A stretch of DNA of 59,432 nt. It comes from a virus. The translations under genes and the position numbers were made by a program. A model generated the notes under the pieces. It saw nothing but the letters and a program-made list of their open reading frames with translations. It was not told the origin of the DNA and did no database searches. This document shows, one piece after another, positions 6,410-29,939 of the stretch (position 1 is its first letter; every line of letters starts with the position of its first letter). The DNA lies in the IMG/VR virus record IMGVR_UViG_3300020205_002237, positions 1 to 59,432 of that record; one strand, written 5' to 3'.

Positions 6410-9400
6410 TTACCAGGTGGGTAACAGTTTTGTTGGTAATGCAGGTGTATTTGTGCCTTCATGTACCATTGTACTAACGCCATTAATAACTTTAGTAGTA
6501 TATCTAGCGGCCATTGTCATTCGTATGTCTTGTAAGAACCCGCACCAAGATTTATCTTGAATCTCGTTGTAGTTAGTTCCAAACTTAAAGTTTTCTATAT
6601 TATAGTAAAGAGGATTAAAATAGTCCGTAGCACTTAAACTACCTGTTGTATATGTTCCAGGATTTCCTGCCCAAATGCGTGCTTTTTCAACTCCATTTAT
6701 ATAACAATAGAAGTTCCCTGCTCGGCGTACGTATGCAATATGATCCATAGTACCGCTAGTTTTAGTAGCTGCTACTACGTCAGTTGTAATTAAGTGGTAA
6801 TCTGTATAAGACTCACCCAATACAAACTGCCAAAATCCACTGCTATTTACACGAACTTGAAAATTATTTTGGTAATGGCTGGCAACTCTGTAAGTAGGAA
6901 TAGACTGTCCACCAGAAGCCGCATCCCATACAGAGGCCCAAAACTCTACGGTAAAGTCCTGAGCTTGACCACTCATGTGTTGAACACCCCAGTAGTTGTA
7001 GGCATACTGCATCCTATTAATAAGGGTAGTATCTCGGTTAGTAAACTTTAAACTGCCATTTCCAAACTTTTTAACATCTGAACTAGGTGTAACTCCATAC
7101 TGCCAAACAAGTGAAGCCATAGAACTGTCTTGAACTGGATTAGACATTTTCTGACTAAAGTGTGTGTGCTGATCATAAACATAACCAGATGTTGGTACTG
7201 TGTAAGTAGTTGCATCATTATCATAACGAGCCGTAGTACTTAAACGTACTCCGCCGTTTGGACTTCCACTAAGTAGTGGATACGTGTTATAAGTTTTTGT
7301 ACCTGGGCTAAAAGCTGCCTGAACAACTTTTCTAACACCATTTACAAAAAGTGCAACTTTATTGGTTTTTGTAGGATCATAGCATATAGCTATGTGATTC
7401 CAACAATGTCCTTTAAATGTAGTAGGATTAGTGTCTGTTGTATTTAACCACTGCACTGTGGCATTATGTTCAGTATAAAAGCCAAAACTTACATTGCCGT
7501 AAGAATTAGCTCCTGCTCCATAATGGTTGCGTATCATCCAGCCTTCGTGCCCAGCAGTTGAGGCAGTATAGATTGGAGACCACACACTATCAACACCATT
7601 TGGATTAGTCTGCTGTGAATACATAAAGCACTCAATAGTCCAAGGACCACTCATGCGAGTTATATAAGAGTTTTCTTGACGGGATCCATCGCCTGTAAAA
7701 GTAGATGCCTCCTGAAAACTATTACTAGTATCACTGGTATCGCCAATAATTTCTGCATCTGGGTCCCAAGGTGCGGTAGGCAAGTACGGACTCATGTTAG
7801 AAGCATACACATCCCAGTTACCGCCATTTGGATAGTCATCTCGTGGATAATCTATTTGATTGTTTCTGCCAGAAAAATCTCGTAAGTTTGAATTGTTTAG
7901 CGTTAATAAAACCGTGTTGGTTATTGCAGTTAATGGTTTAGTTGGCACAGAGATAGAATCTGGATTATTAGTTCCATTACTATAAGCTCCTGAACCTTTT
8001 ACAATTCTTAAGTCTGCCATCCAAGCAGGAAAAGTTCTCCAGTTTCTAACACTTTTTGAGCCGTTAAATAAGTGCATTCGGCCTTGCGGAGCAGAAATAG
8101 TAGAAGTAAACATGACTTCTCGTGACATTCTGCCGTTTACATATAATGCTAGTTTTCCACTAGTTCTTTGTATACAAATATGGCCCCACTGTCCAATAGC
8201 AAAATCAACATTATTTTCAGATAAAATTGGAGTGTTGTTGGTGGTAACGTAAAACCCTTTGCTATGACTAATAAACTCTAAGCATATTCCAGTATCATTA
8301 AAATACTGGCGAGTGTCGAACAATACCCAGCTTTCATTGCCGTACCCAGTCATAAACTCATAGCGCGGTCTAAACCACACTTCAATACTAAAATCACCCG
8401 TGCCAAAATCAAAGTCACCTTGCGTGGTTTTGGCTACTGCACAAGTATTCGTCTCCCCATAGTTGTAGTAACTACCGCCACGACCACGAGATGTAGGGTG
8501 ATGTTGACCATATCGAGGCCCACTACTACGGCGCCAAAGCGCAGTTCTAGAAGTGCCTTCATTTACCCACTGTGCAATATCTGTGTTTGCCTTACCTGAT
8601 GCCATAGTAGCTATCAACAACGAAGTATTTGAATCGTTTGTAGCCACAGTGTCTAGATTGGGGGTAAATACAACAGTACCTACTGTAGTACTTGAAGTTG
8701 TATACCGTGCAGTTTTAGATAGTTTTAAGCAACTGATACTACCATGTAAGTTAACACCATTGTCTCTGGTAGTAAATAAACGTAGTGGTCCAGTAGCGGT
8801 AAAGTTAGTGCTGCAAGTTCCAACATGTACTAATGCACCGTCAATGTACATTTTAAACCCGTTGGCACTGGTGTTTTCACGAACAGCGCAAAGATGGTGC
8901 CAACCTTGATACATGTTTTTGATAGTTGTACTTGTATATGCAGTACCAGCATCAACAAACACAATAGAGTTGCTGTTAGCATAAAAACTCCAGCCTGTGC
9001 CAGTTGTTTCAGCTTTGCCTGTTATACCACCGCCACCAGCGTTACTAACATAAAGCCAGCACTCTACTGTAAAAGCACTTGAGCCTAGCTGTAAACTAGT
9101 GTTACTGGGTTTACGATCTTCTATTTTAGTATAGTGCCCATTGTAAGGTACATTAATACTTGTTGCACCGTGACCTTGTAGCAACGTCGTCTTATCGATA
9201 AAAGGACTGTCAATAATTCTGGCAACACTGTTATATCTTTCTACATTTAGACCTTGTGGCTGCGTAAATCTGTTTACGCCATTGTTGTAGCTAGTAAGGC
9301 TTAATGAATAAGCGCTGCCTGACATATCCAATGCAGCCGTGGGTTTTGAAAAATTAGCAGAGTACTGCGCTGATTTCTTAATACGTATGTCAGTTATTTT

Positions 9401-10177
9401 TCCACCAAAAAAGGTCTCGGCTGTGCCAACTCGGTCACGCCCAATAAACATAGGCCGATCTACGTCATTAAAATTACCCGAACTAGTAAAAGTTGCTTCT
9501 GCTGTACCATCAATGTAAATTTTTGTACTACTAGCAGCAGTACTGGTACGCACAATGGCAACATGATACCAAGTATCGCGTTTTAATTCCGTAGTAGCAG
9601 TTCCTGAAGTATTAGCTACAGCATCATAAAAACCTAGTCTATAGCTAGAATTAACGAAAACTGTCCAACCTGTTCCCGAACCTACTGCAGCAGTATTGCC
9701 ACGACCCATAATATAGTGTTGAGTAGCATCTTGACGACATAGTTTTACCCAAAACTCAATAGTATACGCACCTGTACCAAGTGCAAGAGTTCCTGTTGGG
9801 TCTTCTACGTATAGGTATCCATCATTATGAAAAGTAGTGCACCAGTCAGTATAGCGTGGACCAAAGTACGTTGGCGACTGTTGGTGATGATATTCTGAAG
9901 GTGTTACAAAGTCGCCCCAGTTGTTGGAACTTTTGTCTTTCATTAACCAGTCACTGTAGCTAAGATCGCTGGTATGAAAACATACTTGGTTGTAATAAGG
10001 ATCCTGCTCATTTGCTTGCCAAGATTCTTTTCGCAAAGTACGATTTGCGGAAACTTTTACTTTGGCTTTTTCTCGTATTCCGTATACTTCTTCAGTACTA
10101 AATACACCTGACGGTCTAATGCTTTCAGGTGTTTTATTATCTGGGCCAATAATGCCGCCGTTTTTTCTTCTAGCCAT
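6410..10177 (-). CDS. Giant adhesin with five LamG/concanavalin-like domains
   Basis: 1255 aa. A short Gly-containing anchor (MARRKNGGIIGPDNKTPESI, to about residue 50) is followed by five LamG/ConA-like lectin domains. Each is marked by a strand such as GAYTIEFWVKL, AFTVECWLYV, DFSIEVWFRP, GPWTIECFMY or DFTVEFWASV, then a HIAIxR strand and a KIYIDG-type strand. Such domains bind glycans in host recognition. It is the third gene of the stalk/partner/adhesin unit 10841-6410; its ATG overlaps the partner stop codon (10177). The repeats are well diverged from each other, so this is an old expansion. Confidence 0.8.
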   Translation of the reverse strand: MARRKNGGIIGPDNKTPESIRPSGVFSTEEVYGIREKAKVKVSANRTLRKESWQANEQDPYYNQVCFHTSDLSYSDWLMKDKSSNNWGDFVTPSEYHHQQSPTYFGPRYTDWCTTFHNDGYLYVEDPTGTLALGTGAYTIEFWVKLCRQDATQHYIMGRGNTAAVGSGTGWTVFVNSSYRLGFYDAVANTSGTATTELKRDTWYHVAIVRTSTAASSTKIYIDGTAEATFTSSGNFNDVDRPMFIGRDRVGTAETFFGGKITDIRIKKSAQYSANFSKPTAALDMSGSAYSLSLTSYNNGVNRFTQPQGLNVERYNSVARIIDSPFIDKTTLLQGHGATSINVPYNGHYTKIEDRKPSNTSLQLGSSAFTVECWLYVSNAGGGGITGKAETTGTGWSFYANSNSIVFVDAGTAYTSTTIKNMYQGWHHLCAVRENTSANGFKMYIDGALVHVGTCSTNFTATGPLRLFTTRDNGVNLHGSISCLKLSKTARYTTSSTTVGTVVFTPNLDTVATNDSNTSLLIATMASGKANTDIAQWVNEGTSRTALWRRSSGPRYGQHHPTSRGRGGSYYNYGETNTCAVAKTTQGDFDFGTGDFSIEVWFRPRYEFMTGYGNESWVLFDTRQYFNDTGICLEFISHSKGFYVTTNNTPILSENNVDFAIGQWGHICIQRTSGKLALYVNGRMSREVMFTSTISAPQGRMHLFNGSKSVRNWRTFPAWMADLRIVKGSGAYSNGTNNPDSISVPTKPLTAITNTVLLTLNNSNLRDFSGRNNQIDYPRDDYPNGGNWDVYASNMSPYLPTAPWDPDAEIIGDTSDTSNSFQEASTFTGDGSRQENSYITRMSGPWTIECFMYSQQTNPNGVDSVWSPIYTASTAGHEGWMIRNHYGAGANSYGNVSFGFYTEHNATVQWLNTTDTNPTTFKGHCWNHIAICYDPTKTNKVALFVNGVRKVVQAAFSPGTKTYNTYPLLSGSPNGGVRLSTTARYDNDATTYTVPTSGYVYDQHTHFSQKMSNPVQDSSMASLVWQYGVTPSSDVKKFGNGSLKFTNRDTTLINRMQYAYNYWGVQHMSGQAQDFTVEFWASVWDAASGGQSIPTYRVASHYQNNFQVRVNSSGFWQFVLGESYTDYHLITTDVVAATKTSGTMDHIAYVRRAGNFYCYINGVEKARIWAGNPGTYTTGSLSATDYFNPLYYNIENFKFGTNYNEIQDKSWCGFLQDIRMTMAARYTTKVINGVSTMVHEGTNTPALPTKLLPTW

Positions 10178-10533
10178 TAGTTTACTTCCTCATATACTAC
10201 TGTTATATTTAGAGCTGAGGCAGTGCTAGACAAAATTCTTAAAACGTCACCTTCTTCCATATAAAGAGGGGTGTCTTTGCCTAGGACTACAAGAGTTGAC
10301 TTGGTTGGTACAGTAATACCAAAAGCTAGTGGAAATGAAGTGCTTGATCTAAAAATATCAACCGTTACATCTGCAAAGTCTGTACTTCTGTTAACTGCAA
10401 GTATGCTATTTACTTTTAATACTTTTCCAGATGCGGCAGCGTTAGTAATAATAGCTGTAGCTGAAGTAGTTGCTAGTTGGTGTGCTGATTTAGCTATACA
10501 GACGGTTGCTGTAAATATATTGGGTGCTGCCAT
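10177..10533 (-). CDS. Small beta-rich partner protein, paralogue 1 of 3
   Basis: 118 aa. It shares a pattern with two other proteins in this window (12304-12675 and 24206-24577): MAxPN, then TTSATxxIxNxxxSGKxxKVNxIxxxN, a strand with V/T alternation, xxSTLxVxxK, YxEExxxL, and a C-terminal VxYEEx. All three directly follow a collagen-like stalk gene and precede a large adhesive protein, so the protein may join stalk and adhesin or cap the stalk. Its ribosome binding site GGAGGG is encoded by the last two Gly codons of the stalk gene. Function is inferred from context only. Confidence 0.65.
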   Translation of the reverse strand: MAAPNIFTATVCIAKSAHQLATTSATAIITNAAASGKVLKVNSILAVNRSTDFADVTVDIFRSSTSFPLAFGITVPTKSTLVVLGKDTPLYMEEGDVLRILSSTASALNITVVYEEVN

Positions 10534-10535
10534 GA

Positions 10536-10841
10536 TTACCCTCCAAAAAATAGATTAACAAAATAAGCTCCGGCTACTCCACCACCTTCGGCAGCTTCTC
10601 CTGCTGGGCCTGTAGGTCCTGTTGGACCTGTGGTGCCGTTAACACCAATAGTACCGTTTGCTCCAGCAGGACCTGTTGGCCCTGCAAGACCGCTTTGACT
10701 TACCCAGGCAGTACCATTTGACATTAGTAAATTACCTGTGGGTCCTGGGCCTGTAACTCCAGTACCACCTTTAGACGGTCCTAGGATACCTTGTGCGCTT
10801 AGGCCTTGTGCTAGCTTACCTAAATATGCTGCTATACTCAT
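10536..10841 (-). CDS. Short collagen-like stalk protein with anchor A
   Basis: 101 aa. Residues 1-30 (MSIAAYLGKLAQGLSAQGIL, then PSKGGTG) form the anchor shared with the genes at 12685, 13075 and 18928. SNGTAWVSQ follows, and a collagen-like Gly-x-Y tract ([14 protein letters not shown]..., about residues 53-82) leads to a hydrophobic tip (AYFVNLFFGG). The same tip style ends the giant stalk at 24579. Gly-x-Y tracts form triple helices, so a trimeric rod is expected. It is the first gene of the third stalk/partner/adhesin unit. Confidence 0.7.
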   Translation of the reverse strand: MSIAAYLGKLAQGLSAQGILGPSKGGTGVTGPGPTGNLLMSNGTAWVSQSGLAGPTGPAGANGTIGVNGTTGPTGPTGPAGEAAEGGGVAGAYFVNLFFGG

Positions 10842-10875
10842 AGTGTTCCTTTAAATACCTAGGATATATATCCGA

Positions 10876-11118
10876 TTATTGTGCCGACTGTAGTGCGGAT
10901 AGTTGAACTTCTAAAGCTGTTTTATGCAATTGTGCTTTACGTTGTTCTAATTGACTAAAAGCAATTACTCGTAGTATATGTGCTTTATATTCTGTCATAG
11001 TAGCATCGTCTCCAATATTATCAACAACATGTTGGTTTGTTGTAATATCCAATCCATAACGATCTATTTCTTCACTACGTGCTTCAATAGCACTTGTTAA
11101 ATATTCGATCTTATTCAT
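10876..11118 (-). CDS. Small helical protein of unknown function
   Basis: 80 aa, almost entirely predicted alpha-helical with heptad-like spacing (YLTSAIEARSEEI, then LEQRKAQLHKTALEVQLSAL), suggesting a coiled coil. No signal peptide or membrane segment. It lies between the beta-propeller gene and the third collagen stalk gene, and TTCCTT-type complement upstream gives an AAGGAA ribosome binding site. It could be an assembly factor or a coiled-coil piece of a fibre; I do not recognise it. Confidence 0.6.
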   Translation of the reverse strand: MNKIEYLTSAIEARSEEIDRYGLDITTNQHVVDNIGDDATMTEYKAHILRVIAFSQLEQRKAQLHKTALEVQLSALQSAQ

Positions 11119-11130
11119 TAATTTTCCTTG

Positions 11131-12294
11131 TTAATTTGTTACTGTACCAAAGGCTACAGTATGTGCATTAGCTAAACCTACTGGCATAGTAGTAACACTG
11201 CCAAACCCTGTGGTATTATCCCATGCTAAAGCTACATCTGAACCACCTCCAGTGCTAGCGCTGTTAAATACTAGTAATTTATCGTCAGGAGAGATTTCTA
11301 CATTTGCAGTAGTGCCTCCACTCCAAGTAAATCCGCCTGTATCAGCAAATTTAGCACCTATTCCATTTGTATCGTCCCATTGATAAGCTACTATAGGTAT
11401 TGCATTACTAGTTAAGAAGAATATAACGTTGCCAGCATTGTTCCAAAATATTCTATACGTTGTGCTAAGAGGTGTGCTATAGTTGGCATAACTATACTCA
11501 GCACCATAATAAGTATCAGCGCTCCACCTAAATATTCTGATTCTAGGGTTTCCTGAACCTAGTCCTATACCTATAGCGGCTCCACTAGGACTCCAGGAAA
11601 CATTATACGTATTTCCTCCTGTACTACTAATACTAGCAGGGGTTGGAACACTACCACTACTAGTGCCATCACTATTTATTCTGTATAAGTATACTATACC
11701 ACCACTAGCACTATTTCCGCTGCCATAAAAATTACCGTCTGGGGATATACTTGGGCGCTTATCACCACTGGATGGATAATTGTTAAGATTAGCAGCTTGT
11801 GAAAAAGTACCAAATGTTTTAGCTACTGGATCATATGAAATACTACATAACCTACCTTGAATATCTGAACTCCACCACCATAATCTGTCTGCTATAGGCG
11901 ATGCTTTTAAAGTACTACCTCCTGGTGGATAGGTAATAGTAGGGGTAGCATACGTCGAAACTATGCCACCTGCTTTTGTAAATTCATATCCAATAACATT
12001 TCCACTTGTTGCAAAGAATAAGGCTCTACCAGCTCGGTCCCAGGTACTGCCTCTAAACGCATTAGTTGCAGGAGGTGTATAAGTACTATAAGCAAGAGCA
12101 GAGCCTGTCCATGCAAATAGTAAAGTAGGGCTAGTTTGTTGAGATATATGTAATACTGTGTAAAATTCTTGTGGCCATTTACGTTGAGTTTGATATTGTG
12201 TAATTTGGTTTTGTGTCCACGAACCTTTGCCATTTAAAAAAGTTACTGTAGGAGCAGTAGTTCGGATATATCCACCAGGTCTTGTTAGTGCCAT
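11131..12294 (-). CDS. Beta-propeller-like adhesin
   Basis: 387 aa. After a basic, Gln-rich N-terminus the chain shows at least six WD40/Kelch-like blades: each has a small-residue strand, a turn such as SPDGN, SPSGA, NNAGN or SPDDK, a hydrophobic strand (YVSWSP-like, RIFRWS, LVFNSA) and an aromatic strand (VALAWDNTTGFG, VAYQWDDTNGIG). Xaa-Trp-Asp-Asp/Asn-Thr and GxGxxF repeats mark blade ends. Phage propellers of this kind are expected at virion surfaces. It follows a collagen stalk and a partner protein (second unit), which argues for a tip-located adhesin. No catalytic motif was seen. Confidence 0.65.
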   Translation of the reverse strand: MALTRPGGYIRTTAPTVTFLNGKGSWTQNQITQYQTQRKWPQEFYTVLHISQQTSPTLLFAWTGSALAYSTYTPPATNAFRGSTWDRAGRALFFATSGNVIGYEFTKAGGIVSTYATPTITYPPGGSTLKASPIADRLWWWSSDIQGRLCSISYDPVAKTFGTFSQAANLNNYPSSGDKRPSISPDGNFYGSGNSASGGIVYLYRINSDGTSSGSVPTPASISSTGGNTYNVSWSPSGAAIGIGLGSGNPRIRIFRWSADTYYGAEYSYANYSTPLSTTYRIFWNNAGNVIFFLTSNAIPIVAYQWDDTNGIGAKFADTGGFTWSGGTTANVEISPDDKLLVFNSASTGGGSDVALAWDNTTGFGSVTTMPVGLANAHTVAFGTVTN

Positions 12295-12303
12295 ACATGC
12301 TCC

Positions 12304-12675
12304 TTAACTGATTTCTTCCCAACTAGCTACAATTGTCAAGTAGTTAGCTGAGGCTGCTGTCACGCCAATAGATTGATTTTCTAATAAGTATATAGAGTTT
12401 GATTTATCTATTAACAACATTGCAGCATTAGCAGGAATACCAATTGCATTAACTAATAAATAATTTGTTCCGCCTAGTGCAGCTGCACTGTTAAGGTTAA
12501 TAGTTAAATTTACTGTACTAGTATGACTGTTAGCCGCATTAATTAAGTTGATTTTAAAAATCTTACCGCTTCCTGCGGGATTACTAATTAATTGTGTTGC
12601 TGAAGTAGTTGTTAAACTTACATAACCATTGTTGCCATATAAGTTTGTTGCAGAAGCTATATTTGGATTAGCCAT
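12304..12675 (-). CDS. Small beta-rich partner protein, paralogue 2 of 3
   Basis: 123 aa (MANPNIASATNLYGNNGYVS...). It aligns by eye with the 24206 and 10177 products: SLTTTSATQLISNPAGSGKI, an Asn-rich strand (INAANSHTSTVNLTI), AALGGTNYL, IPANAAMLLIDKSN, YLLENQSIG, and a final ASWEEIS. The closest match is 24206-24577 (shared TTTSAT, AALGGTxF/Y, DKSxxxYLEExSxG). It lies between the short collagen stalk (12685) and the beta-propeller (11131), the same position as its paralogues in their units. AAGGAA precedes the ATG at 12675. Confidence 0.65.
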   Translation of the reverse strand: MANPNIASATNLYGNNGYVSLTTTSATQLISNPAGSGKIFKINLINAANSHTSTVNLTINLNSAAALGGTNYLLVNAIGIPANAAMLLIDKSNSIYLLENQSIGVTAASANYLTIVASWEEIS

Positions 12676-12684
12676 GTATGTTCC

Positions 12685-13065
12685 TTAAATATTTAAAATA
12701 TAGTATTTTAAGCCTCCGCCACCACCGCCCGCTGCAGCGGGACCTGTTGGCCCTGTTATTCCTGCGGGCCCGGTGGGTCCTGTTGCACCGTCAACGCCTA
12801 TTGTACCATTTGTTCCTTGTGGACCTGTGGGCCCAGTAGGACCTGTTGCTCCATCAACACCTATTGTGCCATTTGTTCCTTGAGGGCCTGTTGGACCGGT
12901 AGGGCCCATAGCCCCACCTTGACTTACCCAAGCACTTCCGTTAGAAACTAATACATTTCCGCTAGCACCTGGGCTTGTTACACCTGTGCCACCTTTTGAG
13001 GGGGGCACTACGCCGTCAGCACTAAGCACTGAGGCGAGTTTTGATAAGTATCTTGCTATACCCAT
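12685..13065 (-). CDS. Short collagen-like stalk protein with anchor A
   Basis: 126 aa. It begins [20 protein letters not shown] followed by [16 protein letters not shown] and SNGSAWVSQ, the same anchor as 10536. The collagen-like part holds two almost identical blocks ([20 protein letters not shown]) separated by a few triplets, then a Gly-rich run and a tip LKYYILNI. The duplicated block indicates recent tandem duplication. It heads the second stalk/partner/adhesin unit. Confidence 0.7.
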
Positions 13066-13074
13066 TTGTGATCC

Positions 13075-16000
13075 TTATTTTGTTAACAATGCCGATGAGG
13101 GCGGTGTAAAGTTTGCTGTGTAACGTGCAAAACGGCTAATGCGTAAATCGTCAATATAACCATTTAAAAAGTTAGTTGTGCTGCCCCTAGAACCAACATA
13201 CAGTGGTTTTGTAGCATCACCTAATGTTCCGGAAAAAGTCAGGGGAGTGCCAACAGATACTCCGTCAACATATAATTTTAAAGAAGTTCCATTTCTAACT
13301 CCAGCAATATGATACCAAGTATTAACAACAGGAGTAGGACCAGTGATATATGAATTAGCACTACTAGGATAAAACTGAAACGTACCGTTTGCCGTTTTTA
13401 ATATCATCCAATCTGTACCAACATTAGAAATATAATTACCAACAATATCCACTTCAGTTGATACACTATTAAAATATACCCAAAATTCAACAGTATAATC
13501 TCCCGTATACTGAAAATTAGGACTAGCGGGTATTCTTAAAGTATCACCAGTTCCATCAAAATACATCGAACTTGAGCCGTATTTTTTTACCGCAGTTGAA
13601 ATTCTAGCATCACCCACAGTTTCCAACACAGTTTTACCTGACTTGTCACTAACCGCAGATCTTTCACCATTTATTAGCAAAACAGTGTTAGTACCAGCTT
13701 GAAGTGGTGTTTGTGGTGGTACAAAGTTGCTGGTATAAAGTGCTTGACCTTTGGTAATACGCAGGTCGGTGATAAAACCGCCCCAAGGACTGCCAGTGCC
13801 TTCACCACCAATGTTTAGTGTACCAGCACTATAATCTGTACTGACAGTTGCAGTTGCTACATTTACTCCATTAACATATCCTGTAAGTGTAGTTCCGGTT
13901 CGCACAAATGCTATGTGATTCCAACTATTACTAGGAATAATTGCGCTTACTGCCCACTGATTTGAGGCACCAACCCAAAACTCAAGCCCACCGCTAGCAT
14001 TTACAAATATACGCAGACCACTTCCGCTACTATAAGATATAATAGTATCAAATGTAGTTGAACGTTTGTATATCCAGCACTCAATAGTAAAGTTGCCTGT
14101 ACCTATTAAGTATGCTGGCGATGTTGGCAGTGCTAGGTAATCGCTACCTCCATCAAAGTATGCCGAACCGCCAAAAGTAGTGGGTGTGTAATCTTGTGCG
14201 CTTGAAGTTGTTGACCCAAATGGGTTTTGACGACGTGGTTTTGCATCACCGAACGCATTTACGGTAAATTGATTAGCACTGTTGTCTATTAATGTTGATG
14301 ATTGGCAAGTTAATAGTTGCGTATTTGTAACGGCGGTTAATGGTGTTGTAGGGGGTGTAAAGTTGGTTGTATAAATTGCAGTGCCTTTGACAGCTCGTAC
14401 ATTTGAAAAATATCCAGTATTGTAAGTTGCGCCACCGGGGTTTTTACCAATCCAGACAGCATTACCGCCACAAAGAAAATTAGTACTGTTTGTCACTGAG
14501 CCTGACTGCACACCATTAATAAACATTTTTAAAGTTGTACTACTTCTAGCAACCGCAATGTGATTCCACGCATTTAAAGTTAACGCTATAGATGAAGTTA
14601 TAAATACGGTTACATTATCATTAACAGTGGGTGTTAATCCTGAAGTTTGTTGGTCTATTCTAAAATCACCACTATTAGCTCCAGTACCAAAATATCCGCA
14701 AAATGCAGGTTGCGTTGCTGTGGGGTAAACCCACATTTCAACTGTAAAATCTCCAGTACCAAACGCTAAAGCAGCACTACCTGTAGTTGGATTTAAATAA
14801 TCTCCGTTACCATCAAAATACACACTGTGTGACAGTGGAGTTTGCGTAACCAAGCTAAATGGTGAGAACTTTTGTATGCTTGTGTCACCGACTTTTGTGA
14901 TAGTAAAGTTGTTTATACTGTCATCAATAACACGATTGTTTGCACAGGTTAATAAACTTGTATTTGTGATAGTGGTTAAAGGAGAAGTTGGAACAGTCAA
15001 TGTTGTTAGTGTTGGATCATAAACGGCAGTGCCTTTAACAAGTCTAATATTACTTATGTGCCCACTAAAGAAAATAGCTGCTGATCGTTCTGTACCAATG
15101 AGTATTTGATTAGCTGTATTACTATACGTAGTAGAATTTCCTGTTATTGCAGAAATACGAGTTCCGTTTTGGAATAAGCTTACATTTGTTCCACTTTTAA
15201 CTATTGCTAGATGCACCCATTGGTTGTTAGGAAGAGTAGTGCTTGGAGAGAAAAATAATGTACTGCCAGACACTTCAACATTTACTGAGTTATTAACTAT
15301 TACCATTTGCCAACCTGTAGCGGCACCGCCACCTTTTGCAACAAGACCGGTATAGTTGGTCTGATTTCCAGTTGAGTACACCCACATTTCAATAGTAAAA
15401 TTTCCAACCCATAAATCTAAGGCAGTATTGTGGGGTACGCTTAAATAATCTCCACTACCATCAAAGTAGTTAGACCAATTGGCTCCATATGGACTAAACG
15501 AACCTTGTGTGGTGTTGCCAAAACGTGTGATTGGGCCACTAAGTGTTGAGTTATCAACAAATTGACTATTGTTTGTGGGTTGATGGGTTTGGCAGGTTAG
15601 TAACTGTGTGTTTGTGATGGCTGTTAATGGTTGAGTTGGCGGTGTAAATGCCGCCGTATAAACAGCAGTTCCTTTAACTATACGTGCATTAGAGATATAT
15701 CCTGTTACGTACTCAAAATTACCTGCGCCGTTACGACCAATAGCTACCGTCTCAGTTGAGTCAGTTATTACTAGTGCACCCATGTTTACATCTGGGCCTT
15801 TAACACCGTTAACGTATACGTTTACCATTGCACCATTGCGAACTCCAGCAAGGTGATACCATTGATTAGTTACTAGTGCTGTACCAAAAGTAGAAGTGTA
15901 CATTGATCCACCATAACCTACTGATGCTGTTGGAAATGCTGTACCATTTAAACCAAGTATAAAACTCATTGAGCCTTGACTACCTGCAGCATTACAAGTG

Positions 16001-18925: not shown

Positions 18926-18927
18926 AG

Positions 18928-20280: not shown

Positions 20281-20296
20281 AGTACTCCTTTACTTA

Positions 20297-20659
20297 TTAT
20301 TGTGCCGCTGGTGCTGGAATCTCGTCCCAAGCTTGTGTAGTTTCATTCCAACGATACATCTTTTCATCTGTTGGCATTGCTACAGGAGGTTGCCATAAGC
20401 ACGTTTGAGTGTCTAAGGTCCACGATTGATATGGTTTTGGAGGTACAAAACAATCTTCTGCGGCATTGTAACTGTACCCAATACCAGCAAAATTTTTACG
20501 AAGTGGTGTACCGCCTTGTAGGTGCACTCCACCATGTGTGTTGTATGATGTTTGAATCCATTGACCAGGACTTGTGTCCACGAATGTTTCGAAAAATTCT
20601 GGCTCAGCAACGATTACTTGTGTTACTACGCCATCTGTTACTTTTGCAAAATGTGCCAT
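20297..20659 (-). CDS. Conserved small phage protein (MAHFAKV family)
   Basis: 120 aa. The sequence starts MAHFAKVTDGVVTQVIVAEP and includes WIQTSYNTHGGVHLQGGTPL, RKNFAGIGYSYNAAEDCF and PPKPYQSWTLDTQTCLWQPP. I recall this family from cyanophage and other T4-like aquatic phage fibre regions, where it is a conserved protein of unknown function. The Trp/Tyr/Pro-rich pattern suggests a compact beta domain. Its ATG overlaps the upstream stop codon (TAATG), so it is translated together with the Gly-rich protein gene 20659-21891. Confidence 0.7.
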   Translation of the reverse strand: MAHFAKVTDGVVTQVIVAEPEFFETFVDTSPGQWIQTSYNTHGGVHLQGGTPLRKNFAGIGYSYNAAEDCFVPPKPYQSWTLDTQTCLWQPPVAMPTDEKMYRWNETTQAWDEIPAPAAQ

Positions 20660-21891: not shown

Positions 21892-21893
21892 AA

Positions 21894-23252
21894 TTATTGA
21901 AACCTATACTTAATTATTACGATACCAGATCCACCAGTACCACCGTAGTTGTTTGAATTGTAGTGTGCACCACCGCCTCCACCACCTCCAGTATTGGCTC
22001 CGCCATTACCGCCAGGAACGTTTGTTTGTGAATTTAGTGATCCTACTGTACCAGGAAGTCCTGGATTAAGTCCACCAGTGCCTCCATTACCAGTAGTGCC
22101 GCCTTTAGGCGCTCCACCTCCACCACCACCTTGACCGCCATTACCACCATAAGTACTATAGCCACCACCACCACCGCCACCGCCCCAATAGTAATTTGTA
22201 CCATTGATTGCGTTTTGAATTCCAATACCGCCATTAGCAGGATTATTTGTACCAGCTCCACCAGCACCACCACCACCACCTGGATAATAATCGCCAGCAC
22301 CTATGCTACCGTTATAACCCTGTCCAGCAGTACCTAATCCAAAAGATGTAGATGCAGATCCTGCGGCACCACCGCCACTACCCCCACTGCCTGCTGGAGA
22401 ATTATTATTTGAATATTCGGAAGCTCCGCCACCTCCGCCAAGTGCAGTTACAAACGAGCTACCTCCACTGGCACCGATAACACTATTTGAGCCATTAGTG
22501 CCGCGTACTTGACTAATACCTGCCGGGCCGCCTGCTCCGCCTGCCCCTATTGTAATATAATACATAGCTGCGGATACTACTAGGTTGTTTGCTGCTAACA
22601 CGCCTCCAGCACCACCTCCGCCACCCATGTCACTTCCACCCCCACCGCCACCCGCAACTACAAGATATTCAATTACTGCATTAGCAGGAGCACTAGTAAC
22701 AGTAAAATTATCGCTAGATAAAAAAGTATGGAGTTTATAGTCGCCAATAGTAGTAATTACACCGCCAGTTGCTGAAATATATCCAAAGTATTGAACTGCA
22801 TTCCATGCATTAGCGCTATATACTTCTAGTGAATTATTAGTTGTGTTTATTCGAGTGTATCCTGTACTAGGGCTTGCAGGACGTTGTGCAGTTGTACCTG
22901 ATGGTAAATCAAAAGCTCCTGTACTTGTGTTATTTTGGTCGCTAACAGCTGAAGGGACTACACTAGTTATAGTCGGTTTATCTGTTAAGTCGTTGTAACT
23001 ACCGCTGAAACTTGGCCCAGAATTAATACCTGTTAAAATCCAGTTTCCGCCACCGTATACATAAAGATCGCCACTTTCGTTTTCTAACCACATTGCCCCA
23101 TCTGTGGGACTTGCGGGTGCTGTAGCGCTTGCTGTAACTGAAGCTCCGCCAGTAGAATCTTTAGCCCAACCTTTACCATTAAACTTCCAAATATTACTAT
23201 TAAATGTGTATGTTTGATTTAGTGTTGGGTTACTAGGGAATGAAAAAGCCAT
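21894..23252 (-). CDS. Glycine-rich tip protein with anchor B
   Basis: 452 aa. Anchor B in a more diverged form (MAFSFPSNPTLNQTYTFNSN, then WKFNGKGWAK), an ATAPASPTDGAMWLENESGD module also seen in 18928-20280, a short PSFSGSYNDLTDKPTITSVV linker, the VSDQNNTSTGAFDLPSGTTA module, YFGYISATGG, and the Gly-rich domain IEYLVVAGGGGGG to SGIVIIKYRFQ. SYNDLTDKPTI is a common phage fibre linker. It combines modules found separately in its neighbours, which is evidence of module shuffling. Confidence 0.7.
   Translation of the reverse strand: MAFSFPSNPTLNQTYTFNSNIWKFNGKGWAKDSTGGASVTASATAPASPTDGAMWLENESGDLYVYGGGNWILTGINSGPSFSGSYNDLTDKPTITSVVPSAVSDQNNTSTGAFDLPSGTTAQRPASPSTGYTRINTTNNSLEVYSANAWNAVQYFGYISATGGVITTIGDYKLHTFLSSDNFTVTSAPANAVIEYLVVAGGGGGGSDMGGGGGAGGVLAANNLVVSAAMYYITIGAGGAGGPAGISQVRGTNGSNSVIGASGGSSFVTALGGGGGASEYSNNNSPAGSGGSGGGAAGSASTSFGLGTAGQGYNGSIGAGDYYPGGGGGAGGAGTNNPANGGIGIQNAINGTNYYWGGGGGGGGYSTYGGNGGQGGGGGGAPKGGTTGNGGTGGLNPGLPGTVGSLNSQTNVPGGNGGANTGGGGGGGAHYNSNNYGGTGGSGIVIIKYRFQ
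22816..22913 (-). repeat. 98-bp direct repeat, copy 2
   Basis: This is the partner of 21557-21654, with no mismatch seen. It lies in the matching position of the upstream paralogous gene. Homologous recombination between the copies would delete or duplicate one gene length (1259 bp) and leave a chimeric gene. 1259 is not a multiple of 3, but both copies are in frame within their own genes, so the chimera would be in frame. Confidence 0.85.
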
Positions 23253-23267
23253 ATTTATCCTTTATTA

Positions 23268-24206
23268 TCAGCCACTAAAACTTAAGGTGCCAGATGAAGT
23301 AAATGCATAGTAATAATATCCACTGGATATTGTTAAAGTGGGAGCTCCTGTTACGGTAGCCGCAGGAAAAGTAGTAGGGTAACGAATTACTACTAAGCCG
23401 CTGCCGCCTGGACTGCCGATATTACCTTCAGTCTGTCCACCACCGCCACCGCCACCTGTATTAGTTAATCCAGATGTTGATATATCTGGGCCGCCTCCTC
23501 TGCCGCCTCCACCAATTCCGCCTGGTCCATTGCCTCGAATATACCAGTGGCCACCACCTCCACCGCCACCGTAATAACCTTTACCTGACACAGAAGCGTT
23601 TGAATTACTTACATCAGTTCCATACATATTAAAAGCCGAAACTAATACTCCAGGGCCACCTTGACGAGGATAAGTAGCATCACCATAGGAATATCCTTCA
23701 CCGCCTGCACCACCGCCAGAGCTACCCCAACCATTGCCTGCCCACCCTGCGCCTGGCCCATAACCGTTTCCAGATGTGCCACCGGCACCTGCGGCATTTG
23801 CACCACCAGTTCCACCAGTTGCTGTATTAACAGTAGTTGCACCGCCGTATAAAATTGAGGAGTTTCCACCTGAAGTAGAACTACTACCACTAGTGCCACC
23901 TGCAGCCACAGTGATCACTAAAGTTTGCGTTAGTGGCAATTCTTGAGAAAACGTTCCAGTATTTACACCACCACCGCCTCCGCCACCACCGCCATAAAAA
24001 GTACCGCTGCCCTGGCCACCACCGCCACCGCCACCAACAACTAAATAATTGATTGATGTTGGAGCAGGAGGTACTAAGGGAGCTGCAGATAATTTTCTTA
24101 CTACCTTTATACCAGCTCTAGCCATATTCCAGATACCGTTGGCAGCAAAAAGACTTAAAGCACTTGTGCTTGTGTTTAACAACCCACCACGATATCTTTT
24201 AGTCAT
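23268..24206 (-). CDS. Glycine-rich tip protein with a third anchor type
   Basis: 312 aa. The N-terminus (MTKRYRGGLLNTSTSALSLF, then AANGIWNMARAGIKVVRK) differs from anchors A and B but resembles a GG-x-S/T-x-GIW phage fibre start. There is no linker module: the Gly-rich domain begins at about residue 52 (INYLVVGGGGGGG), runs to GSGLVVIRYPTTF and is followed by an extension ending in YYAFTSSGTLSFSG. That extension resembles the C-terminus of 17867-18925. It is the third gene of the first stalk/partner/adhesin unit; its ATG overlaps the partner stop codon as TAATG. Confidence 0.68.
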   Translation of the reverse strand: MTKRYRGGLLNTSTSALSLFAANGIWNMARAGIKVVRKLSAAPLVPPAPTSINYLVVGGGGGGGQGSGTFYGGGGGGGGGVNTGTFSQELPLTQTLVITVAAGGTSGSSSTSGGNSSILYGGATTVNTATGGTGGANAAGAGGTSGNGYGPGAGWAGNGWGSSGGGAGGEGYSYGDATYPRQGGPGVLVSAFNMYGTDVSNSNASVSGKGYYGGGGGGGHWYIRGNGPGGIGGGGRGGGPDISTSGLTNTGGGGGGGQTEGNIGSPGGSGLVVIRYPTTFPAATVTGAPTLTISSGYYYYAFTSSGTLSFSG

Positions 24207-24577
24207 TAGCTTATATCCTCATAACTTACTGTTACTACAAGTGCATTTGCCGTTCCAGCAGTAGCACCTAAACTAGAATTTTCTTCTAGGTAGTATTGAC
24301 TTGACTTATCAATTACATTGATTGTTGAATTTGCTGCCACAGACAGTGTGCCTACAATTGCAAAACTAGTTCCGCCTAAGGCAGCTCCCGTGTTAAATAC
24401 AACTGTTACAGTTGCTGCCGTACCTGTGGTGTTACTTACGTTTAAAGTATTAACTTTTAAACATTTACCACTACTAGCGGCATTACTTAGCACACTAGTG
24501 GCACTAGTTGTTGTTAAACTAGTGCCACTTGTTTTGCCTGTTATTGTTGTTGCTCCAATTAAATTTGGTGCTGCCAT
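24206..24577 (-). CDS. Small beta-rich partner protein, paralogue 3 of 3
   Basis: 123 aa from the ATG at 24577 (MAAPNLIGATTITGKTSGTS). This start has GGAGG at a 5-nt spacing; a TTG four codons upstream would overlap the stalk gene and is unlikely. Shared family features are SLTTTSATSVLSNAASSGKC, AALGGTSFAIVGTL, VAANSTINVIDKSSQYYLEE and a final VSYEDIS. It follows the giant collagen stalk and precedes a Gly-rich adhesin. The ribosome binding site lies inside the last codons (Gly-Gly) of the stalk gene, so the two are tightly coupled. Confidence 0.68.
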   Translation of the reverse strand: MAAPNLIGATTITGKTSGTSLTTTSATSVLSNAASSGKCLKVNTLNVSNTTGTAATVTVVFNTGAALGGTSFAIVGTLSVAANSTINVIDKSSQYYLEENSSLGATAGTANALVVTVSYEDIS

Positions 24578-24578
24578 G

Positions 24579-27500
24579 TTATCCTCCAAATATCAGCGAG
24601 TAACCTATTGCTCTTGCTGTTGTAGTGCCTGGACCTGTTGGGCCTATTGCTCCGGTTGATCCGGTTGCTCCGGTTGCTCCGTTTGTTCCAGCCGGACCTT
24701 GTGGTCCTTGACTACCAGAAGCTCCAACGGCAATAACCCACTCAGTGCCTGTGTATATAAAAAATTCGCCAGTAGTAGAATCCAGCCAAAACTGACCAGA
24801 AGTAGGAGTAGCTGGTGCAGTATCTCCTACATAGGCTGTCCCGTTTGCTCCAGCAGGACCTGTTGCTCCAGTTGGACCTGTTGAGCCTGCTGTACCATTA
24901 GTACCTGCTGGACCTGTAGGACCGCCTGCTGGTCCTGGGGCACCTGTTGGACCTACCGGACCGTCGCCCATCATTTCGCGAACTACAATCTCTTGACCAG
25001 CTTCTGGTGCAACTAAAAATGTTAGTGTAGTTCCGCTTAATGTGTAATCACTAGTAGGTTTAAGCAAAGAACCGTTAGCTACAACTAAAAGACTGTCTAC
25101 AGTATATCCACTATTAATAGTAAATGCTGTTGTAGTGCCATTTCCAGTAAAGCTTTCTGTTACTACTTGGAAAGGTAAACCTGTTCCACTAATACCTTGT
25201 GGGCCTGTGGCTCCTGTTGGACCTGTAGCTCCATTAACCCCAACAGTTCCATTAGTTCCTGCTGGACCTGTTGGACCATCACCACGCATTTCACGCACAA
25301 CAATGTCTTGAGAATTACCAGGTGCAATAGTAAATGTTAATGTTGATCCGCTAACAGTATAATCACTGGTTGGTTTTAACACAACTCCGCTAACGGTAAC
25401 CAGTATATTATCTACTGTGTATCCGCTGTTAATTGTAAAGTTTGTAGTACTTCCATTACCTACAAAACTTTCAGTAACTACAGTAAATGTAGTACCAATA
25501 GCTCCTGGACCTGTTGGACCTGCTGTACCTTGCGTACCTTGTATACCTTGTATACCTTGCACGCCTTGAGAACCTGTTGGCCCAGCAACTCCTGTGGGAC
25601 CTGCAATACCTTGAGGACCTGTTGGACCTGTGGCACCATCAACACCTATAGTGCCGTTAGTACCTTGAGCACCTGTAGGGCCTGCAACACCTGTTGGGCC
25701 TGTAACGCCTTGAATACCTTGAGCACCTGTAGGACCTACAACACCTTGAGTACCTGTTGGACCTGCAACACCTTGTGAACCTGTTGGTCCTACAATTTGG
25801 CCTACATCTAAATAAGCACTTCCTGTCCAAGTATAGAGGTTACCGTCAGCAGTAACAATATAAGCATCTCCAACGCTAGCTCCACCTGGTAATGCACCAA
25901 CTGTAGCTACTTCGCCTTTGATATTTACTGAAGTTCCTGGTGCCCCTGTTGAGCCTGTTGGTCCTACAATACCTTGTGAGCCTGTAGGACCTGTAGTACC
26001 TTGTAAGCCCTGTGAGCCTGTTGGTCCTGCAATACCTTGAGGACCTGTTGGACCTGTGGCACCATCAACACCTATAGTGCCGTTAGTACCTTGAGCACCT
26101 GTAGGACCTGCAGCACCTGCTGAACCTGTGGGACCTACAACGCCTTGAATACCTTGAATACCTTGAATACCCTGTACACCTTGAGCACCTGTTGGACCTG
26201 CAGCACCTGTTGGACCTGCAGCACCTTGAGAACCCGTTGGGCCTGTAGCACCATCGCCCATCATTTCACGTACTACTATTTCGTGACCAGTTTTAGGCGC
26301 TGTAATAAATGTTAGAGTGCTACCGCTTAGTGTATAATCTGTTGTGGCTTTTAGTACAATACCGTTAACTACAACTAAAAGATTGTCTATAGTATATCCA
26401 CTATCAATTGCAAAATTGACTGTAGTATTATCCCCAGTAAAGTTTTTAGTTATAACAGTAAAAGGTAGTCCTGTACCACTTGCACCTTGTGGACCTGTTG
26501 GGCCAGTGCCACCTAGAATACCATTGGAACCTGCTGGACCTGTAGGACCTGCTACAGTTGAGGCAGCGCCTGTAGGACCTGTAGAACCTGTAGAGCCTGT
26601 TGGTCCGGTTGCTCCGTCTAAGCCAGCCGTACCATTAGTACCTTGTGGACCTGTTGCACCTTGAATACCTTGAATACCTTGAGAACCCGTTGGACCTGTA
26701 GCACCTTGAATACCCTGGATGCCTTGAGCACCTGTAGGACCTGTAAGACCTGTTGTACCTTGTGGGCCTGTAGGTCCATCACCAGTTAATTCGCGTACTA
26801 CAATTTCGTCGCCACTATAAGGCGTAACACCAAATGTTAATGTAGTTCCGCTTAGTGTATAATCTGTTGTGGGTTTTAGTAAAGATCCGTTGATTGTTAC
26901 TAGTATACTATCTAGCGTATATCCGCTGTTAACAGTAAAAGCTGATGCACTACCATCGCCAGTAAATGACTGAGTAGTCATTATAAAAGGAAAACCAGTA
27001 CCGCTTGGTCCTTGTGGACCTGTAGCACCTGTTGGTCCTAATGAACCTGTAGGTCCAGGTACTGTTGATGCAGCACCTGTAGTACCCTGTACGCCTTGTA
27101 CACCTTGAATACCTTGGGGACCTGTTGGTCCCACGTTACCTTGTATACCTTGTGAACCACTAGCACCTGTAGGTCCTATGGAACCTGTAGGACCCGCTAT
27201 TGTAGAATCAGCACCTGTTGGTCCTGTGTTACCTGTGTTACCTTGAACACCTGTTGGTCCTGCTACACCTTGAATACCTTGAATACCTTGTGTACCTTGT
27301 GCACCTGTAGGTCCTGCTACACCTTGAATACCTTGCGCACCTGTAGGACCTGTGGCACCGTCAACGCCTATAACACCGTTAGTACCCTGTGCACCTGTAG
27401 GTCCTTGAATACCTTGAATACCTTGTATCCCCTGTATACCTTGAATACCTTGTGCACCTGTAGGACCTGTAGCACCGTCAACACCTATAACACCGTTAGT

Positions 27501-29939
27501 ACCCTGTGCACCTGTGGGGCCTTGTGCACCTGTAGGACCTGTAACACCTTGAATACCTTGAGCACCTGTAGGTCCTGTAGCACCATCAACGCCTATAACA
27601 CCGTTGACGCCTTGAGCACCTGTAGGACCTGTTATACCTTGAATACCTTGAATACCCTGAATACCCTGAATACCCTGAATACCTTGTGCACCTGTAGGTC
27701 CTGTAGCACCATCAACGCCTATAACACCGTTGACGCCTTGAGCACCTGTAGGACCTGTAGGACCTACTGCACCTGTAGGGCCTGCGACGCCTTGAATACC
27801 TTGTGCACCTGTAGGGCCTGTAGCTCCATCAACGCCTATAACGCCGTTGACACCTTGAGCTCCTGTGGGTCCTGTAACGCCTTGAATACCTTGAGTACCT
27901 TGTGGTCCTTGTAGTCCGCTTGCTCCGCTAAGATCAATTGTATATGTATAGCTTGTGCCGTTCCATAAATACAGTCTAGAATCTTCTGGATTTTCTACGT
28001 TGCCTGTATTAATTACAGCAAACTGACCTGCAACAATTCCTGTAGGAGAGGTATCAGCTGTTAGTGCTGCTACGCTTGCGTAAGTTTTAGCAATTGCAAA
28101 TCCGAGACCTGTAGCACCTGTAGGGCCTGTAACGCCTTGAATACCTTGAACACCTTGTATGCCCTGAGCACCTGTGGGACCTGTAACACCTTGGATACCT
28201 TGAATACCTTGTGAACCTGTAGGACCTACTTCACCTTGAGCACCTGTTGGACCTGTAACGCCTTGAATACCTTGTGAACCTGTTGGGCCTGTAACACCTT
28301 GAATACCTTGTATACCTTGTATACCTTGTATACCTTGTATACCTTGTATACCTTGTGAACCTGTTGGCCCTACTTCACCTTGAATACCTTGAGCACCTGT
28401 TGGTCCTGTAACGCCTTGAATACCTTGTGCACCTGTTGGTCCTGTAACGCCTTGAATACCTTGAATACCTTGGATGCCCTGAATACCTTGAGCACCTGTA
28501 GGGCCTGTAACGCCTTGAATACCTTGTGCACCTGTAGGGCCGATATCACCTTGAATACCTTGTATACCTTGGGCACCTGTTGGGCCTACTTCACCTTGTA
28601 TACCTTGAACACCTGTTGAACCTGTAACACCTTGGATACCTTGAGCACCTGTAGGGCCTGTAACGCCTTGTATACCCTGTATACCTTGGATACCCTGGTC
28701 ACCAGTAGGTCCTGTAACACCTTGTATACCTTGAGGCCCTGTTGGACCTGTAACGCCTTGTATACCTTGTGAACCTGTTGGTCCTACTTCGCCTTGAATA
28801 CCTTGGATACCTTGGATACCTTGGATACCTTGTGAACCTGTAGGTCCTACTTCGCCTTGAATACCTTGAGCACCTGTTGGACCTGTAACACCTTGGATAC
28901 CTTGAGCACCTGTAGGACCTGTTGGGCCTACAACACCTTGTATACCCTGGATACCTTGATCACCTGTTGGACCTGTAACGCCCTGAATACCTTGTACGCC
29001 TTGTATACCCTGAATACCTTGAGCACCTGTTGGTCCTACAACGCCTTGAATACCTTGAATACCTTGATCACCTGTAGGTCCTTGCGGTCCTTGTGGACCA
29101 TCTGCTCCAGCTACACCAGCGGGTCCTGTTGGGCCGTCACCACCTTGTGGTCCTGGTACTGTAGATGCAGCACCTTGGACGCCAGATACACCAGCTGGAC
29201 CTGTTGGACCTGTGGGTCCTGTTGCTCCGTAACCAATACTTTGGCCGTCAACAACTAAGAATCCGCCACTAGCTGAAATAGGTGTACCACCCAAATCAAT
29301 TGTGTTAGCGCTAAAGTAGCCAGTTCTCCAACGTTTTGTTTGTGAACCAAGATCATATGTTTGATCTACAGCAGGTATTAAACTACCTGTTATAGTAGCA
29401 ATATTAATACCAGGATCGCCTGGATCACCTTTTGGACCTTGAAGTCCTGTACCAACTAAGTGGCCTGTTAGTTCCTTAATAACGATTTTTAGACCGCTAG
29501 GAGGTGCGCTAACAAAAGTAATGTATCCACTAGCTATCGAAAAATCAGTATTAGCATCTTGCGAAATACCACCAACAAATACTAAGAAACTTTCAGCGGT
29601 TATTCCTGGTGTAACTATATATGTAGTAGTACTACCATTACCAGTATAATATCTGGTATTGGCATTAAAAGCAGTACCACCTGGAGCTGCATTAACCCAG
29701 TTACTGCCGTTATATACTAGTGCCTGTCCGTTGACAGGGCTTGCGACTGTTACGTCTGATAAATTATCTAAGCTAATACTAGCTAAGTCTTTGAAAAACT
29801 TTACTGAATTATCAGATGCTTTAAAATAAATTCTGCCATCAGCATAATTAATGGCTAACTCGCCATACTCGAGATCACTTGTAACAGGAACTTTGCCTAC
29901 TACCGATGATTTCTTAAGAATAATCTTATTTGTTGCCAT
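24579..29939 (-). CDS. Giant collagen-like tail fibre
   Basis: 1786 aa. Residues 1-90 are a phage fibre N-terminus ([20 protein letters not shown], then [12 protein letters not shown]). Most of the rest is Gly-x-Y collagen-like sequence, chiefly GPTGxQ and GIQ triplets. At least five copies of a globular beta module interrupt it (for example [20 protein letters not shown] ... [13 protein letters not shown] ... EIVVRE), with one SVAALTAD ... [11 protein letters not shown] module, one [20 protein letters not shown] module and a [20 protein letters not shown] module near the end. The tip is [10 protein letters not shown]. Triple-helical rods joined by globular knobs are expected. The Thr-rich GPT triplets resemble those glycosylated in Bacillus BclA. 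Confidence 0.85.
28297..28353 (-). repeat. 9-bp tandem repeat run (Gly-Ile-Gln codons)
   Basis: Six successive 9-bp units encode GIQ repeated in the collagen-like fibre; five of the units are identical. Shorter runs occur throughout 25.5-29.1 kb. Because the unit is three codons, gain or loss of units keeps the frame and changes only rod length. Confidence 0.8.

Follow-up and report, generated by a model that had tools for sequence, protein, structure and literature searches.

A small protein as a putative joint between fibres and exchangeable heads in three gene units of a tailed phage

Introduction

In uncultivated phages, receptor-binding proteins are difficult to identify, as their heads have no sequence in common. 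The locus considered here lies in a 59,432-nt stretch of DNA (IMGVR_UViG_3300020205_002237; the whole stretch is referred to as the window) from a bacterial virus of tailed type. The initial annotation claimed that a collagen-like stalk, a partner of about 120 aa and an adhesin occur together three times, and proposed that they form a defined assembly in which heads can be exchanged on a conserved joint. The question is what the partner does: whether it connects a fibre to a separate head, assists folding, binds a receptor itself, or was simply copied along with its neighbours.

Results

All nine genes of the claimed arrangement were found, on the minus strand, and in 3/3 units the partner gene had a collagen-like stalk on one side and a putative adhesin on the other. 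The fibre of unit A (24579..29939) comprised 1786 aa with 367 Gly-X-Y triplets, in blocks broken by small beta domains. Its last 14 codons before the stop (24582..24623) encoded a terminal peptide of a class common to the related loci L001-L013. The partner of unit A (24206..24577, 123 aa; family matches) was followed by a head of 312 aa (23268..24206) containing a Gly_rich_2 domain (Pfam E 2e-19). This head gave no match to a solved structure in a PDB search up to E 0.1, including S16 gp38. Its N-terminal segment, MTKRYRGGLLNTSTSALSLFAANGIWNMARAG..., was encoded at 24087..24206.

Unit B comprised a short collagen stalk (12685..13065, 126 aa) with an N-terminal anchor ending ...SKGGTG, a partner (12304..12675, 123 aa) and a head (11131..12294, 387 aa). 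The C-terminal peptide of this stalk (12688..12720, 11 residues), with the letters LKYYILNI, was divergent and distant from the consensus. The head began with the segment GGYIRTTAPTVTFLNGKGSWTQNQITQYQTQRKWP (12172..12294). Unit C comprised a short collagen stalk (10536..10841, 101 aa) ending in the peptide GVAGAYFVNLFFGG (10539..10580), a partner (10177..10533, 118 aa) and a head of 1255 aa (6410..10177) with five LamG/ConA-like domains (Pfam E 2e-56) and the N-terminal segment MARRKNGGIIGPDNKTPESIRPSGVFSTEEVYGIREK (10058..10177). Short stalks B and C were 69% identical over 84 aa. The initial annotation had missed two features: every stalk of the three units has a C-terminal peptide, canonical or divergent, and the N-terminal segment of every head contains GG. 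Its claim that the adhesive fold differs in every unit held for the Gly_rich_2 head of A and the LamG head of C; the beta-propeller of B is plausible but unproven, because its matches were weak (PD40, 0.011; THO subunit 3 (THOC3) in the PDB, 0.2).

The three partners were paralogues, as had been proposed, with 31-45% pairwise identity (BLASTP E 1e-14 to 9e-25) and alignment scores 24-31 s.d. above those of 1000 shuffles. Across 84,980 genomes of bacteria and archaea, only six relatives were found, all on MAG contigs; the family is almost confined to viruses and appears to be common in those of aquatic habitats. Most related genomes, which included jumbo, T4-like, siphovirus-like and pelagiphage genomes, contained the triad once. 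Partners were found without collagen neighbours, and very rarely without an adhesin-like neighbour; the clear exception was S-CBWM1, which contained a lone partner copy without the unit's neighbours. Searched by sequence against solved structures, the partner had no homologue (best E 0.09). PHROG 16122 gave no match in any control phage, and Bellamy gp43, a candidate member of the family, scored only 8.5 bits by HMM.

The upstream protein closed with the terminal peptide, ~12 residues long (...GKAIAMAIVFG-stop or a variant of it). Of 72 nonredundant loci retrieved by their partner, 63 had a peptide-like ending on the upstream protein; among control ORFs the figure was 3/522. Within the partner-retrieved units, similarity among upstream proteins was 0.43 over the last 16 residues and 0.14-0.20 over the stretches before them. 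In a blind DNA scan of IMG/VR, 80/80 peptide matches were at the extreme C-terminus and the partner was the next gene in 77/79 testable cases; in a blind IMG/VR scan for the head motif GVWSLMEQ, the partner preceded the motif gene in 78/78 testable matches, all of these linkage counts being drawn from related sequences, with canonical peptide subtypes predominant in both pattern scans. Loci L093 and L118 had the peptide without a partner. At third positions of the peptide codons the entropy was 1.4-2.0 bits, close to random, apart from the Met codon; first and second positions were constrained, over a conserved core of about 11 codons. This free wobble variation indicates that selection acts on the protein rather than on a ribosome-binding site overlapping the peptide codons.

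The head segment was a short N-terminus of the form GGxIG..., frequently continuing ...GVWSLxEQ...WP. It was less uniform than the peptide, with a strict GG.[ILV] in 87/139 heads. Distances among peptides and head segments were also compared with distances among partners as evidence of contact; the correlation was significant, but it was significant for flanking control segments too and so says nothing about contact.

Collagen did not define the stalk. The upstream protein was collagen-like in 10/72 related units and in 16/140 of the wider set, so that "stalk" is any fibre ending in the terminal peptide. The 140 nonredundant units comprised ~80 upstream clusters and ~90 head clusters in 125 combinations, with essentially one partner cluster. 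Among 95 heads, domains were assigned as Gly_rich_2 (47), fn3 (14), LamG (11) and RCC1 (3). The proposal of a conserved joint with exchangeable heads is accordingly well supported by comparative genomics, without its collagen component.

A sister phage contig contained partners 91% (A) and 76% (B) identical to those of the window, together with heads that had no BLAST match or, for head B, 30% identity. The N-terminal segment of head A was kept and the remainder of the head was not; the divergent peptide of unit B was retained. In unit C, both the partner and the LamG head were absent, and the orthologous stalk retained its collagen but had lost the terminal peptide with them. Unit C has been exchanged in the sister phage by cassette replacement.

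AlphaFold models of the partner, including that of unit B, were confident beta-sandwiches (pLDDT 93-98). By Foldseek, the predicted fold may resemble trimeric phage and TNF/C1q-type jelly rolls, with similarity to the KHP40 trimeric cement protein, the Sf6/HS1 tail-needle knobs, the C1q-like domain of BclA, TNF and the lectin BC2L-C; for TNF/C1q-like jelly rolls the probability was 0.9-1.0, with a TM-score to target of only 0.3-0.6. In read-through chains of peptide, partner and head segment (window unit B and locus L060), modelled as monomers with linkers of 4-7 residues, the partner was confident and neither peptide docked (pLDDT ~50-65); in this format, absence of docking does not amount to a negative result.

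Remote homologues were found in cyanophages. PHROG 1276, consisting of ~110-aa cyanophage proteins, was matched by 9/77 construct rows; its members scored 27-37 bits against the partner by HMM (best shuffle 14), with an HHalign probability of 97.5. Members were located between a fibre gene and the next fibre or head gene in S-SCSM1 (gp26-27-28), S-SKS1 (SWZG_00012-11-10) and Microcystis phage MaMV-DC (ORF43-44-45), the ~112-aa homologue taking the position equivalent to the partner. Upstream proteins in T4-like cyanophages had hydrophobic-Gly endings (FILALGGN, LIIALG, VGLGLGG) like the terminal peptide. MaMV-DC ORF44 was flanked by a protein ending GLGLGG and a putatively LamG-like protein starting GGYIG...NWSILDVYNRQRRNLW, as in the window-type heads. 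S-TIM5 had the peptide and no recognised head. Unlike the window units, S-SCSM1 and S-SKS1 encode another fibre, not a lectin, as the next protein, and the T4-like cyanophage homologues are distant in sequence and functionally unannotated.

Discussion

We consider it probable (roughly 0.7) that the partner is a virion joint connecting the C-terminal peptide of a fibre to exchangeable, separately encoded heads. On this reading, the partner would be a small component of the virion with a jelly-roll-like fold, probably a trimer. It would cap a trimeric fibre at its C-terminus by binding the short peptide found there, while the opposite side of the partner would hold the N-terminal docking segment of the adhesin. 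Because the peptide and segment belong to it, the joint would be more than the partner alone. Both contacts would presumably be direct and physical. Since both would be made by short peptides, any fibre gaining the peptide could be combined with any lectin-like head gaining the segment, and receptor-binding heads could therefore be exchanged as cassettes. In the window phage, three joints in the virion would give three display arms, presumably acting in adsorption: one with a Gly-rich head, one with a possible beta-propeller and one with a LamG head.

An unlikely alternative, though the strongest of those considered, is that the partner helps the fibre or the head to assemble, as a chaperone of the Tfa, T4 gp38 or Pam3 gp25 type, and is outside the mature virion. 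The partner is small and encoded directly after a fibre, the genes of Tfa and Pam3 gp25 are likewise small and lie next to a fibre gene, and tail-fibre chaperones work on distal fibre ends. The binding domain of Pam3 gp25 is a beta-sandwich; the protein also has a C-terminal helical trimerisation domain, and is absent from virions (PMC9608196). The partner model shares the sandwich but lacks the helical domain, and the partner matched no chaperone family in Pfam or PHROGs. The remote homologue gp27 of S-SCSM1, whose virion proteome has been measured, is annotated "virion protein", which supports presence of the partner in virions only indirectly, and conserved segments on both neighbours suit a bridge better than a chaperone with one client.

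It is less probable still that the partner is a lectin, a second receptor-binding subunit merely co-transcribed with an independent adhesin. Two homologues are labelled "putative lectin" in GenBank, the modelled fold is similar to the N-terminal lectin of BC2L-C, and the S-CBWM1 copy stands alone; against this, every testable canonical-motif head was preceded by a partner, and heads diversify while the partner is conserved, the opposite of what is expected of a part in contact with a receptor. Recent tandem duplication of a local operon, with no defined assembly, would fit three paralogous sets in a single genome and the similarity of stalks B and C. This account is very improbable: the unit A fibre is unrelated, all three heads differ, and as sole explanation it is contradicted by the linkage of the triad, mostly in single copy, in unrelated genomes. 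Finally, the peptide might be retained because its DNA contains the site at which ribosomes bind to start the partner. In favour, the genes are often separated by 1-18 nt, and a Shine-Dalgarno-like tetramer immediately before 159/185 partner starts may overlap the terminal Gly codons. This account is nevertheless the least credible: the codon analysis contradicts it, with the last Gly codon as a possible exception.

The joint reading has partial parallels in known systems. In T-even phages and S16, a trimeric gp37 fibre carries the adhesin gp38, a separate and exchangeable protein with a polyglycine-rich domain, whose gene follows immediately downstream. S16-type adhesins are seated directly on gp37; the S16 structure is cited in PMC13243795. 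In T2 and S16 the adhesin gene adjoins the fibre gene, whereas in all three window units and their relatives the ~120-aa partner gene lies between; the window-type heads also include LamG, fn3 and RCC1 folds, unlike S16-type adhesins. In C1q and BclA a collagen stalk ends in a jelly-roll domain, but the partner is a separate polypeptide that would join a further head, and most fibres upstream of it are non-collagen.

The neck fibre of Anabaena phage A-1(L) is, like the window units, encoded by a three-gene operon, gp82-gp81-gp80, whose products (base, globular trimeric bead and distal carbohydrate-binding head) form a complex in vitro (PMC10966104). Unlike the partner, gp81 forms a ~14-fold polymer located on the neck (PMC10966104), and it was ruled out as a homologue (HMM 0.5 bits). 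The "novel 3-protein module" of LSH1 (PMC13243795) was rejected as an equivalent unit, being a beta-helix/GP4-like set. No description of the peptide strings or of the unit architecture was found in the literature searched, which covered only a minority of subscription journals.

Should the joint prove real, its signature of peptide, partner and segment would flag receptor-binding heads of any fold by position in hundreds of aquatic phages, provide a simple rule for exchanging heads between phages, and offer a small, testable peptide-protein-peptide connector. A broader proposition, about as likely as not, is that the ~110-125-aa jelly-roll joint superfamily acts generally as a snap connector in environmental phages. 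Such a connector would recognise the peptide at the C-terminus of the fibre before it and the N-terminal segment of the component that follows, would serve fibre-to-fibre (S-SKS1, S-SCSM1) as well as fibre-to-head junctions, and would let unrelated phages draw on a common market of receptor-binding heads that can be exchanged.

The window also encodes several single-chain adhesins beside the three units. An N-terminal anchor, MSIAxYLxKLAxGLSAxG...SKGGTG, is common to short stalks B and C and to the single-chain adhesins at 13075-17850 and 18928-20280.

Stalk, partner and head genes of the window

Three collagen stalk, partner and adhesin units had been proposed in the initial annotation, and the positions of the nine genes were correct. 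Unit A occupies 29939-23268, unit B 13065-11131 and unit C 10841-6410, with partners at 24206-24577, 12304-12675 and 10177-10533, respectively, on the minus strand. The partners are paralogues, as had been claimed; identity in full-length alignments was 31-45% (BLASTP E values of 1e-14 to 9e-25), and pairwise alignments lay 24-31 s.d. above shuffled sequences. Individually, they matched no family in Pfam or PHROG. The proposed difference in kind between the heads (the downstream putative adhesins) held for A, a Gly_rich_2 protein, and C, a five-LamG protein; the beta-propeller assigned to B corresponded to weak matches.

Relatives and copy number

A scan of IMG/VR returned at least 530 partner relatives. 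Six were recovered from 84,980 bacterial and archaeal genomes, every one on a MAG contig, which makes this essentially a family of viruses. Among annotated phage records, a partner is present in those of pelagiphage HTVC033P, cyanophages S-SKS1, Bellamy and S-CBWM1, and lake phage DSL-LC04, whose genome was assembled from a metagenome (PMC10611076). The proteins are labelled 'hypothetical protein' or 'putative lectin'. In a set of 26 additional virus records carrying a partner or the peptide described below, most had one partner. The sister phage contig G001 had two, and the 223-kb record G002 had four, each downstream of a different protein; three copies, as in the window, are thus unusual, not unique. 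All four units of G002 (L287, L288) are complete, and partner genes occur in tandem in L190. A solitary homologue, annotated as a putative lectin, lies in a metabolic gene region of S-CBWM1 (L085, 8001-8396) without fibre or adhesin neighbours. In L090 (9840-10450) an apparent cupredoxin-like domain is inserted into the partner, in the loop preceding the SNKVLKVN motif.

Linkage of the partner to a terminal peptide and a head segment

Collagen did not stand as the defining part of the stalk, since a collagen-like upstream gene was present in only 10 of 72 nonredundant partner-retrieved loci. More generally, the upstream protein ended in a short hydrophobic-Gly peptide (63/72 loci vs 3/522 other ORFs). 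As this regular expression was composed after the data had been seen, the linkage was tested in the reverse direction by independent DNA-pattern scans. All 80 matches to the peptide pattern lay at the extreme end of an ORF, and the partner gene was directly downstream in 77 of the 79 with enough sequence. Scanning for GVWSLMEQ, the commonest head motif, gave 80 matches (one, in L257, in a frameshifted reading frame), with a partner upstream in 78 of 78 with enough upstream sequence. Loci in both scans are related, so these counts are not independent events, but there is great variety among the proteins on either side of the partner. Linkage of the partner to both peptide and head segment is near-obligate.

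Across partner-retrieved units, mean normalised similarity was 0.43 for the last 16 upstream residues vs 0.14-0.20 for each preceding 16-residue block. Residues 1-12 of the heads scored 0.22, followed by 0.12-0.15. The head segment is looser than the peptide; strict GG.[ILV] was found in 87/139 heads, and this or a GVW-like core in 106/139. In L093 (1454-1485) and L118 (reverse strand, 2482) the terminal peptide GKAIAMSIVFGG was followed by no recognised partner; the ORFs after it resemble another structural family.

Exchange of fibres and heads

Grouping of 140 nonredundant units, using upstream bodies without the peptide and heads without their first 50 aa, gave approximately 80 upstream groups, 90 head groups and 125 distinct combinations around essentially one partner group, which fits the exchangeable heads initially proposed. 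Domains in 95 scanned heads were Gly_rich_2 (47), fn3 (14), LamG (11) and RCC1 (3).

The nearest relative, G001 (locus L289), provides a natural experiment in exchange. Compared with the window, partner A shows 91% and partner B 76% identity; head B is 30% identical, and head A gave no BLAST match. The first 40 or so residues of both heads are still recognisably alike. Where the window has unit C, G001 retains the same short stalk, with anchor and collagen aligning, but this stalk lacks the terminal peptide and continues into its own C-terminal domain, and three unrelated genes replace partner C and the LamG head. Peptide, partner and head were therefore lost together.

Fold and wider family

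AlphaFold2 was run on natural read-through chains with stop codons read as Gly (window unit B and locus L060), so that docking of the flanking peptides could be assessed. The partner was modelled as a beta-sandwich with approximately nine strands (pLDDT 93-98); the flanking peptides were undocked (pLDDT about 50-65) in these single chains, whose linkers are only 4-7 residues. Foldseek against the PDB returned jelly-roll proteins, many trimeric (TM to target 0.3-0.6), including KHP40 cement protein, Sf6 and HS1 tail-needle knobs, the BclA C1q-like domain, TNF and BC2L-C lectin. Against BFVD, the matches included many phage proteins of 105-125 aa (TM to target 0.8-0.9), of which several carry the name virion structural protein; these matches led to PHROG 1276.

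The partner profile scored 27-37 bits against S-SCSM1 gp27, S-SKS1 SWZG_00011, MaMV-DC ORF44 and an S-TIM5 protein (best of 1200 shuffles, 14). In S-SCSM1, gp27 lies between a long tail fibre ending FILALGGN and a tail fibre. S-SKS1 has a chain of fibre, joint, fibre, joint and LamG protein. In MaMV-DC, ORF44 follows a protein ending VGLGLGG and precedes one starting GGYIG that reads as LamG-like. These arrangements suggest a general joint that serves fibre-to-fibre connections as well as junctions with heads. For S-SCSM1, 45 virion proteins are reported from mass spectrometry (PMC9602691); gp27 would be among them, judging by its record's annotation as 'virion protein'.

Beside the partner unit of Bellamy, genes 42-44 (L296, 8551-10483) form a parallel trio. 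It comprises a fibre with TWLYGGG at its end, a protein of 120 aa that belongs to a different sequence family (8.5 bits with the partner profile) and is possibly a divergent joint, and a further protein.

Proposed mechanism

Most likely, a jelly-roll joint, itself probably a trimer, would bind the three C-terminal peptides of the fibre and in turn hold the N-terminal segment of the head. We infer this contact and stoichiometry, and a role in adsorption. Evidence against the main rival, that the partner is a chaperone, comes from the virion annotation of a remote homologue, from conservation on two sides (upstream peptide and head segment) and from the lack of a match to any chaperone family. 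Conservation of the peptide does not simply reflect a ribosome-binding site for the partner gene, because its third codon positions are almost random and the first and second constrained, indicating selection as protein.

In T2 and S16 (gp37/gp38), the adhesin on the fibre tip is known to be the product of a separate gene. A heteromeric fibre with a bead protein is likewise known, in the A-1(L) neck fibre (PMC10966104). The literature open to search, from which many subscription journals are missing, yielded no small family bridging arbitrary fibres to arbitrary heads via two peptides.

Other gene content of the window

The window, a virus record of 59 kb, comes from a long-tailed phage. In one large ORF (54875-56815, 646 aa), the N-terminal half matched families of head maturation proteases and a later part matched those of major head proteins; it may be a protease-capsid fusion. 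A distant T5-type major tail protein (50628-52304), a hub protein with NlpC/P60 and phage-tail_3 matches (40528-44100) and an endolysin (1880-2494) were also identified.

The adhesin region (about 6-30 kb, minus strand throughout) contains, besides the three units, one additional LamG protein with six domains (13075-17850) and four additional Gly-rich proteins (17867-23252). An N-terminal anchor of approximately 30 aa (MSxAxxLxKLAxGLxAxGxLxxxKGGTG) is common to four otherwise different proteins: the short stalks of C (10536-10841) and B (12685-13065) and two single-chain adhesins (13075-17850 and 18928-20280). Either a one-chain adhesin or a three-part arm could thus be mounted at one anchoring site, and the shared sequence suggests a common docking site for both in this phage. 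A 120-aa protein at 20297-20659 starts MAHFAKVTDGVVTQVIVAEPEFF; proteins similar to it adjoin adhesin genes in HTVC033P, L134, L141, L154, G002 and G001. Adjoining the adhesin region, 3178-4224 encodes TPR repeats fused to a family-2 glycosyltransferase.
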